From Microcoleus sp. EPA2 (GTDB lineage: Bacteria; Cyanobacteriota; Cyanobacteriia; Cyanobacteriales; Microcoleaceae), in NCBI GenBank assembly GCA_020882975.1, contig JAHRFD010000001.1, forward strand, positions 1 through 64,000: a stretch of 64,000 nucleotides of DNA, written 5' to 3'. Made by a program: the position numbers and the translations under genes. Shown one piece after another: positions 25,349 through 28,300 of the stretch (its first letter is position 1; the number at the start of each line of letters is the position of its first letter). Under the pieces are notes generated by a model. That model worked only from the letters and a program-made list of their open reading frames with translations. It had not been told where the DNA came from and did no database searches.

Positions 25349-28300
25349 ATGCCAAATTTAAATAGTAAAGTTTCCCTAAGTGCGATCGCCTTTATAGACA
25401 GTAAAGTTAAAGATTATCAAAGTTTGATTGCTGGGGTGAAACCGGGTACGGAAGTAGTCGTTTTGGATGGGCAGAAAGATGCGATCGCCCAAATTACTCA
25501 AATCTTAGCTTGTCGTACCAATATTGACAGCATTCATATAATTTCTCACGGTGCTCCCGGTAGCTTGCAACTGGGAAAAACCAGATTTTCCGAAGCTAAT
25601 TTAGAAACATATTCCGAACAATTGCAGCAATGGCGGAGTGCTTTTACAGACAATGCGGATATTCTGATTTACGGTTGCAATGTGGCATCTGGGCCTCGCG
25701 TTTATCCGAGAGTCCGCCGGGGAATTAATTCCCCGTCTCATAGCGGAAGTCGGTTTCAACCGACAGGGAATAATTCATTTATTCAGTCATCTTTAGATGA
25801 CTTGTGCTATGAGACGGGGGTTTCAACCCCCGGCGGAACCGGGGAACAAGCGAGAAATTTAGATGTAGATTTTGAAATAGATGGTTTCACCTTCATCCAA
25901 CGAATTGCCCAACTCACAAATACCAACGTTGCCGCCTCCAAAAACCTCACCGGAAGCGCGACAAAAGGTGGCGACTGGGAACTAGAAACCAGCACTGGAT
26001 CGATTAAAACACCGCTAGTATTTCGGGAAGATGCGATCGCAGCATACAGCCATGTTCTATCAAGTTTCGGTGCTGAAACTAATTTTGGCGCAGGGAATCA
26101 ACCGCAATTCGTTGGTATCGGAGATTTCAACGGCGACACCAAGCCTGACTTAGCCGTGGCGAATCGTGCAGGTAACAACGTTTCTATCCTAATAGGGACA
26201 GGTACAGGAAGCTTTAGTGCTCCCACTAATTTTCCTGTGGGACAATATGCCTTTGCTGTCACGGTGGCAGACTTTAATGGAGACACGAAGCTTGACCTAG
26301 CCGTTGCCAACTGGGGAACTAATAACGTATCAATTTTGTTAGGAACAGGGACAGGCAGTTTTGGTACAGCTACCAACTTTAACGTCGGGTCGAGTCCCTG
26401 GTCAGTTACGTCCGGCGACTTCAATGGAGATGGCAAAATTGACCTAGCCACAGCCAACATTGACTCAAACAATGTCTCGATTCTATTAGGGACAGGTACT
26501 GGCAGCTTTGGCACTGCCACCAACTTTATCGTCGGGACAAAACCCCAGTCTGTATCTGTAGGCGACTTTAACAAAGACGGCAAACTTGACCTAACGACGG
26601 CAAACTTTAACTCAAACAATGTCTCGATTCTATTGGGGACAGGGACGGGTAGCTTTGGCACTGCCACTAATTTTAATGTGGGGACAAACCCCTATTCTGT
26701 TGCTGTGGGAGATTTTAACGCGGATGCCAAGCCTGACATAGCCACGGCCAACGAAGGTTCTAATGATGTATCCGTACTCTTGGGGAATGGCACAGGTGGC
26801 TTTGGGGCTACCACTAACTTTCTTGTGGGGACAGGGCCTCGTTCCGTTACTGTGGGTGACTTTAACGCAGACGGTAAAATTGACTTAGCTACGGCCAACG
26901 GTGTTAGCAACTCGACCCCTATTGCTAATAACCTCTCGGTTCTGCTGGGGACAGGCACTGGTACTTTTAGCCCTGCCACCAACTATAGCTTGGGGTCAAA
27001 TCCTTGGACTGTCACCGCGGCCGATTTGAATGCGGATGGGGTTCTTGACCTAGCCACGTCGAACTATTGGACTAACAATGTTTCGGTGGTGCTGAATACA
27101 CCCAACACAGTCAATTTCGGTGCGGCTACTTACAGCGGCGTGGAAGGAACAACAGACACCGCAGTTAATATTCCCGTCACCCTCAGCGGCGGCACTCCCT
27201 TGACAGATGTAGTTGTACCAATTGTTATCAATCCCAGTAGCAGTGCCACCCAAAATTCAGACTACACCTTTTCACCTACAACTGTTACATTCCCCGCAGG
27301 TGCAACAGGTGCGACACTCACCAAGAATGTTGCAGTTACTATCAAGCCCGACAATCTACCTGAAAATGCCGAAACCGCAATTCTCAACTTTGGCACAATT
27401 ACTGGAGGCGTTGGGGGTACAACCAAACAAACCACACTAACTATTGCCGCCAACGATCAACCTTCAACCCTGAGTCCTTACAAAATTGACCTCAAAACAG
27501 GCGCAATTACTGGTCAGCCCAACCCGTTTATTTCTCTAGTAAATACCCCGGCAGACTCCAACGCAGACAGTTGGTTAGAAGCGGTTGCCAAAATCAATTT
27601 TGACGGCAACATCAAGAAAGCGAAATTTATCGTTGAATACGACAAAGCCCCGTCAGGATGGACGGTAAATCTCGGCGACTCTGCGTCAAACGACGGCTAT
27701 GGAGGGGATGGAGGCGATCAAAGTCGTGATGCCGAGGTGCAGATTGTTAACGGGAGTATGGCAGTTTTTGGCAATGACTACAATACACCCGCTGGTGCAG
27801 AACTTCCCCAAGGAAATGTGCCTAATTTTGTGAGTAATGGTTCCCGCATCGAGTTAGAAGTCAGCAACGAACAACTGGCTTGGGATAACAAAAGCGGACT
27901 AAAAAATAGCTTGAATTCGCCGTATCTTTACGCCCTAAACGGTCAAGCTGATGCTGGTGGGCCTGTCAATTCGGAGATTTACGCCGGATTTAACAGGGTG
28001 ATTTCTGGGCCTTTTGATCGCATCGGATCTGGTGCTAGCAAGGTAACAATTCTACTCAATCCGATCGACTACGCAGTTAGTGCTGGTGTTGCAATCGTTA
28101 CTGAAGGGAATTCCGGCAAAACAGGAGTCACATTTACTGTTAATCGCAGCGGTTCCACTGAGTTTGCGAGCAAAATAGATTATGCGATCGCAGGTACTGC
28201 TACAAACGTCAGCGATTACAACAACATCGGCGGCACATCCGGTGCAACTGGCGCGACAGGTACGATTAATTTTGCAGCCGGCGAGACATCGAAAACCATT

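Follow-up and report, generated by a model that had tools for sequence, protein, structure and literature searches.

The window, the whole stretch of DNA that was analysed, comprises 64,000 nucleotides (nt) of Microcoleus sp. EPA2 (positions 1 to 64,000 of contig JAHRFD010000001.1, assembly GCA_020882975.1). It contains a gene for a giant protein of 3053 amino acids (aa), headed by a DUF4347 (PF14252) domain that is interrupted in frame by a palindromic repeat dispersed elsewhere in the genome. The insert is probably an old in-frame capture of this repeat into a tolerant DUF4347 loop, which spread with the gene family and is still evolving as palindromic DNA.

25349..34510, + strand: host gene, 3053 aa, with split DUF4347, FG-GAP, Calx-beta and RTX (HemolysinCabind) repeats (Pfam, open reading frame (ORF) list)
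25385..25693, + strand: DUF4347 first part, profile 1-103 (six-frame profile scan)
25547-25549 and 25676-25678, + strand: codons of His67 and Cys110 (counted on the sequence)
25694..25885, + strand: repeat-derived insert, 64 codons (residues 116-179), predicted to be disordered
25713..25837, + strand: composite palindromic repeat unit TCCGCC...GGCGGA
25719..25734, + strand: 5' small palindromic box GGGGAATTAATTCCCC
25735..25744, + strand: inner arm GTCTCATAGC
25748..25765, + strand: inner left box AGTCGGTT..AACCGACA
25785..25802, + strand: inner right box AGTCATC....GATGACT
25806..25815, + strand: inner arm GCTATGAGAC
25816..25831, + strand: 3' small palindromic box GGGGGTTTCAACCCCC
25880..26059, + strand: DUF4347 second part, profile 105-164 (six-frame profile scan)

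The host ORF has no stop across its 3053 codons. Its DUF4347 matches the Pfam profile in two stretches, at 198 bits against a cut-off of 24.6, and the better stretch covers residues 13-115 (profile positions 1-103). Since the match breaks off at 25693 (profile 103) and resumes at 25880 (profile 105), the domain is split where the original prediction, made from the letters of the DNA, had placed a 64-residue interruption. The insert is 192 nt long and in frame. The palindrome predicted behind it was recovered as well, with the arms GTCTCATAGC and GCTATGAGAC inside the repeat unit, and the frame of about 9 kb is open through the repeat as claimed. The outer arms of the unit (25713-25751 and 25799-25837) are 82% complementary. 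Folding of the mRNA, suggested together with these claims, gave -100 kcal/mol for 25680-25900 against a shuffle mean of -62.2 (n=200), a z of -7.6. Orthologues sharing the inserted residues without the palindrome were not found, and the five aligned orthologues (L002-L006) have both. An assembly or sequencing error peculiar to the window genome was rejected because orthologues in other assemblies carry the same insert; a fresh insertion in the window strain was also rejected.

Structure prediction models DUF4347 as a caspase-like (clan CD) fold, and similarity to this fold was found. His67 and Cys110 are invariant in 15 sequences, a dyad judged by sequence conservation. DUF4347 is likely an uncharacterised protease-like domain in which Cys110 is the presumed catalytic residue. 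The insert follows Cys110, in a loop beside this putative catalytic residue, and is predicted to be disordered. The open frame suggests that the inserted segment is translated.

The repeat has a composite build. Its core unit of about 125 bp, TCCGCC...GGCGGA, is a palindrome of four smaller palindromic boxes, two of the type GGGG...CCCC in the outer arms and two of the type AGTC...GACT inside. Intergenic copies had been predicted at 12559 and 22627 of the window and were found within about 50 bases of these positions.

12608..12760, - strand: intergenic unit of the same family as the insert
22622..22929, + strand: three tandem intergenic units of the same family

A search of the own genome with the 125-bp core gave at least 64 match rows, with 40 of 72 candidates scored and a single palindrome able to match once per strand. 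The arm GTCTCATAGC occurs 58 times against 14 for its reversed control. Therefore, the repeat family is not a product of chance. Among the scored matches in the own genome, those nearest to the window unit are the inserts of two other split DUF4347 genes. Complementarity beyond TCCGCC/GGCGGA is weak, at 5.8 against 4.8 in shuffles for 35 coding units and 6.0 against 4.8 for 50 other units. Because these values barely exceed the shuffles, no outer boundary of the element is claimed. In the order, 17 of 148 sampled genomes gave matches (E up to 1e-5), three in the window's genus and 14 in nine other genera. All rows outside the genus contain stops but one, G167:C8, which is open within a frame of 102 aa. 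With matches in nine other genera and no coding-type copy listed there, the repeat family is wider than its coding use within this sample.

Two further occurrences of this family deserve mention. Outside the genus, a row at G167:C4:156194-156331 with one TAG lies beside a reported 501-aa frame and could be another captured copy. In the own genome, C12:69500-71300 holds an array of the insert-family palindromic repeat with a spacing of 194-223 bp, including a GAGAGAGC variant.

The repeat is inserted at one site in many DUF4347 genes. As read from the six-frame profile scan, the own genome has 12 such genes, nine unbroken and three split (on C1, which is the window, C2 and C60). Five of its 36 repeat-peptide rows lie in stop-free frames of at least 1000 aa, all in the three split genes, while the frames of the remaining 31 measure 31-157 aa, and three of these 31 rows are antisense readings of DUF4347 copies. 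Among the matches listed for 29 genomes of the genus, 43 rows from 15 genomes fall in stop-free frames of at least 240 aa. DUF4347 genes account for 42 of these, including two rows on G009:C237, a contig that starts inside the insert, and the rows on G039:C141 and G041:C67, which belong to two frame-broken genes; the other row is in a kinase/AAA ATPase gene of G014. The 29 genomes gave 368 DUF4347 domain matches (split domains count twice), part of which was examined. In a catalogue of 61 domains, 32 have repeat-derived inserts of 174-627 nt, each directly after YGCNV[A/G][S/A], with SHG and YGC retained in all 32. The insert is in frame in 30 of the 32; some of the loci were supplied by an open-frame peptide search, which is biased toward intact frames. 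Of two frame-blind sets, the first (30 loci) had 11 inserted domains, all 11 in frame, and the second, from a protein-pattern search (22 loci), had 11, nine of them in frame. Loci L014, L072, L151 and L154, which have only the first domain half, are outside the 32. Protein-database searches returned 18 distinct proteins, all 18 with PF14252; these searches require shared 5-residue words and missed the kinase case.

The inserts contain one to three units, some of them partial, together with short tandem peptides (AIDNEYAIDRE, DIIDEC) and foreign stretches. The insert of L146 holds a nested stretch of a second dispersed repeat, which has 71 matches in the genome of L146, 35 in that of the window and none in G007. 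Relatives without the insert have short joins such as YGCNVALSAIAFIQR.

Several neighbouring cases were observed. The unrelated kinase/AAA ATPase protein (L167:1665-5999 on G014:C283, and L191) has two in-frame repeat pieces just before the Walker A strand. Of its 13 listed relatives, 10 lack the repeat and L192 (G042) retains a stub, while in L193 and in L196 (the latter from the own genome) this loop contains short tandem peptides of other kinds. In L072:3001-3507, P0015 and P0016, DUF4347 genes break off directly behind the repeat peptide and continue into an unrelated tail, possibly through a rearrangement breakpoint at the repeat. In L072 a 180-aa ORF that looks helix-hairpin-helix-like overlaps this tail in a different frame.

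The coding copies keep a hairpin beyond the need of the peptide. The first 150 nt of each in-frame insert were compared with 25 synonymous recodings in the codon usage of the window gene. Across the 30 in-frame inserts the median z was -6.1, with 25 below -2, against a median of -1.1 and seven of 30 below -2 for upstream control DNA of equal length. For the analysis of individual units, coverage from model position 40 or lower to 140 or higher was required, which kept 190 of 286 places and 90 distinct units. By position these were 33 coding and 57 other units; four of the 57, from loci L072, L154 and L157 in DUF4347 genes with one half missing, were reassigned, giving 37 coding and 53 other units. 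In the box pairs of the 37 coding units, both partners have changed in 59 cells; shuffles give 23.9 +/- 3.2 (none of 500 as high) and slid controls 11 at most. The box covariation score is 0.155, compared with 0.072 for shuffles (none of 500 as high) and no more than 0.057 for slid controls. When the columns concerned are kept out of the tree, the individual box pairs require a minimum of 6, 4, 4, 2, 2, 2 and 1 paired-state changes. These swaps are linked in the peptide, where the 3' box reads GVSTP or GNSFP and the 5' box reads GINSP or GFKSP / GFKPP. Paired box changes are thus supported, with mixed statistics.

Box types were also counted. The 37 coding units divide into 23 A/G, eight G/A, one A/A, two G/G and three unclassified (Fisher p 2e-5). 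The 50 non-coding units of alignment A5, which was used for these counts only and omits L027_1411, L117_3 and L167 from the 53, divide into 19 A/G, six G/A, nine A/A, 14 G/G and two unclassified (p 1). The pattern of the coding units was set aside as evidence, since it reflects few lineages.

In six ungapped sequences, the synonymous divergence (dS) of the insert is 0.05-0.30 against 0.27-1.20 in the flanks and is below both flanks in all 15 pairs. The ratio of nonsynonymous to synonymous divergence (dN/dS) is 0.27-2.25 against 0.13-0.51 and is above both flanks in 14 of the 15, the exception being L003-L006. DNA-level constraint or homogenisation would produce this combination of low silent divergence and a dN/dS near 1, which is not evidence of positive selection. 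As judged from these comparisons, protein-level constraint on the insert is weak. The original prediction had offered a repeat turned protein or an mRNA hairpin as alternatives, and both properties are present in the DNA at once. Its first alternative stands in that a dispersed palindromic repeat lies in frame inside DUF4347, but this is not a single event of one gene; within the genus it is a long-standing condition at one site of a paralogous family.

These findings suggest a history in several steps. The composite palindrome, which is found in non-coding DNA throughout the cyanobacterial order, would have been captured in frame in an ancestor within the genus, in the loop after the presumed catalytic Cys of the caspase-like DUF4347. 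The capture was probably single, followed by spread and by loss in some branches. The loop, presumably exposed at the surface, would have tolerated the repeat, which could therefore become a disordered peptide linker. The insert would then have spread with the DUF4347 family, grown to two or three units and absorbed other sequence. Its arms stay complementary, and its small boxes change on both sides. Selection on the hairpin could bring this about, but the most likely cause is template switching between arms and boxes, together with some exchange with other copies. Because the segment would evolve as palindromic DNA, the peptide would change in linked residue pairs under little protein constraint.

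Besides the frame bias of the catalogue, several results weigh against this history. The domain tree, built without the insert from 59 of the 61 catalogued domains (L174_m666 and L080 were omitted), demands at least eight gains or losses of the insert, five of them forced by well-supported branches, so that several captures or transfers are possible. L148 lies in a distant DUF4347 subfamily. A free quick tree of the units nests four non-coding units among the coding ones. Two of the 32 inserts break the frame, each at a change within the repeat, and one of them is in the closest orthologue, L069. Five of the 30 in-frame inserts (L067, L068, L073, L146 and L159) lack a hairpin excess over their first 150 nt, where these loci contain only an incomplete unit or foreign sequence. 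Pairs with a both-sided change number 7 against 6.7 in shuffles (321 of 500) and further pair types 12 against 16.8 (500 of 500); these two of the five covariation measures, which gave no excess, are those least inflated by relatedness. The long outer helix is 91.7% paired with little covariation. Neighbouring pairs flip together, and therefore at most about 15 separate both-sided events lie on a weak tree. The inserted segment could also be removed or never made.

Repeated independent captures, with the site acting as a target or trap for repeats, are somewhat unlikely and nevertheless a live rival, mainly because L148 falls in a distant subfamily and the kinase gene has in-frame repeat pieces of its own. 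The state changes on the domain tree, at least eight with five forced, and the stretch of a second repeat family in the L146 insert also favour this explanation. However, a single clade for all 37 coding units is not rejected; its likelihood is above that of the free quick search, with a p of 0.82 in the approximately unbiased (AU) test. The closest scored own-genome matches of the window unit, being the inserts of the other two split DUF4347 genes, likewise weigh against repeated capture.

Gene conversion between coding and non-coding copies, which would maintain the palindrome and occasionally break the frame, is doubtful to a similar degree. It draws on the closest orthologue, L069/L216, in which GTCGAGAGAGC stands in place of GTCTCATAGC and the frame is shifted by one. 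Elsewhere in that genome the 15-mer CCCCGTCGAGAGAGC is confined to three sites on a single other contig. This change fits an exchange with non-coding copies, but only a very short tract is shared, and its flanks differ from those of the three sites. The coding units otherwise cluster together, and the case comes from a single metagenome assembly in which an assembly fault is possible. In the insert of L070/L138, tandem units (GPAGEGEAIQSS..., GPAGEGEAIQSSLEDFRYETGVETNGG) precede the frame loss and are a possible on/off contingency site.

A functional mRNA hairpin, in which the palindrome is selected for translation, stability or termination of the giant transcript and the peptide is a by-product, is slightly less probable again. 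It would account for a hairpin far beyond the need of the peptide, for the both-sided box changes and for the low silent divergence in 15 of 15 pairs. In contrast, DUF4347 genes of the same genus do without the insert (nine of 12 in the own genome), the same boxes occur in non-coding copies, and it is the small boxes that covary rather than the long outer helix. Template switching can also yield such patterns without selection, as described in the available parts of two papers (PMC8794818, PMC8604942). An ordinary protein insert, with the loop natural and ancestral in DUF4347 and the repeats descended from it, would explain the tight group of coding units but is disfavoured as very improbable by the presence of the repeat in nine further genera of the sample, where no coding-type copy is listed, by unbroken PF14252 in nine of 12 own-genome genes and by an insert dN/dS near 1.

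It can be speculated, at rather long odds, that the repeat-derived stretch is the activation linker of a caspase-like autoprocessing domain. The palindrome would then supply an interdomain linker, changes in unit number or frame would tune or switch off the processing of a giant surface protein, and linker residues would co-vary as Watson-Crick partners and not as protein contacts.

Other repeats were observed in the window. A CRISPR-like array (clustered regularly interspaced short palindromic repeats) at 49637-50325 has ten copies of a repeat of about 36 nt at a spacing of 69-75 nt. A second dispersed repeat family (ATATCAATTCCGGTTGTATCGGAATGATTTAACCGC...) occurs in both orientations at 8019, 39602, 47318, 49478 and 63298, and an AATGGGG/AATTGGG heptamer array lies at 58514-58639.

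The case is of wider interest in two respects. In a free-living cyanobacterial genus, dozens of paralogous copies either carry or lack an insert at one defined loop by a putative active site, and therefore the question of tolerated junk versus raw material for protein parts becomes directly testable. The insert may also be a natural case of protein change that tracks DNA pairing, and dN/dS and covariation methods may therefore mislead. Among titles and the beginnings of abstracts, with most subscription journals outside coverage, no report of repeat capture in DUF4347 was found, and none of the four covered papers that name DUF4347 concerns repeat capture as judged by title.

The insert can be compared with several known systems. 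In caspases, the L2 interdomain linker is a long disordered stretch after the strand next to the catalytic Cys. In the models, the DUF4347 insert is likewise a long disordered stretch directly after the strand adjoining the presumed catalytic Cys, but it is of repeat origin. Compared with DUF4347 (PF14252)/Tce1, the Microcoleus domain heads a giant FG-GAP/Calx-beta/RTX protein and carries an insert. With regard to miniature inverted-repeat transposable elements (MITEs), the Microcoleus unit has inverted arms, with weak complementarity beyond TCCGCC/GGCGGA. Repetitive extragenic palindromes (REPs), tagged by GTAG/CGTC, also occur in cyanobacteria and sometimes lie wholly inside ORFs, according to the available part of the source (PMC3733652), the main text of which does not name Microcoleus. 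REP units are tagged and 20-40 bp long, whereas the Microcoleus unit of about 125 bp is a palindrome of smaller palindromes (consensus read by eye). Template switching at inverted repeats is described, in the parts of the papers available, as causing both-sided and multi-base changes, coding DNA included (PMC8604942, PMC8794818); for the captured DUF4347 repeat it is suggested by the pattern and not event by event.

The closest known parallel, and the most familiar example of palindromic repeats captured in frame, comes from Rickettsia. There, in the part of the source available, Rickettsia palindromic elements (RPEs) are dispersed palindromes of about 150 bp that lie in frame in protein genes and encode a conserved peptide (PMC10969869). 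The Microcoleus repeat is similarly dispersed outside genes (at least 64 own-genome match rows, and 31 of 36 peptide rows in short frames) and similarly inserted with the host frame open (30 of 32 inserted DUF4347 domains). However, RPEs lie in unrelated genes, whereas 42 of the 43 listed long-frame rows of the Microcoleus repeat are in DUF4347 and one is in the kinase/ATPase gene. The phylum is also another one, and units multiply and nest within the DUF4347 inserts. The insert thus appears to work like an RPE, yet it is not assigned to the RPEs, as a spread over many unrelated genes was not seen among the listed rows and the likeness is by description and not by RPE sequences. What looks new is that the repeat occupies one particular loop next to a putative active site, that units multiply and nest at this place, and that the coding copies hold the palindrome beyond the need of the peptide.
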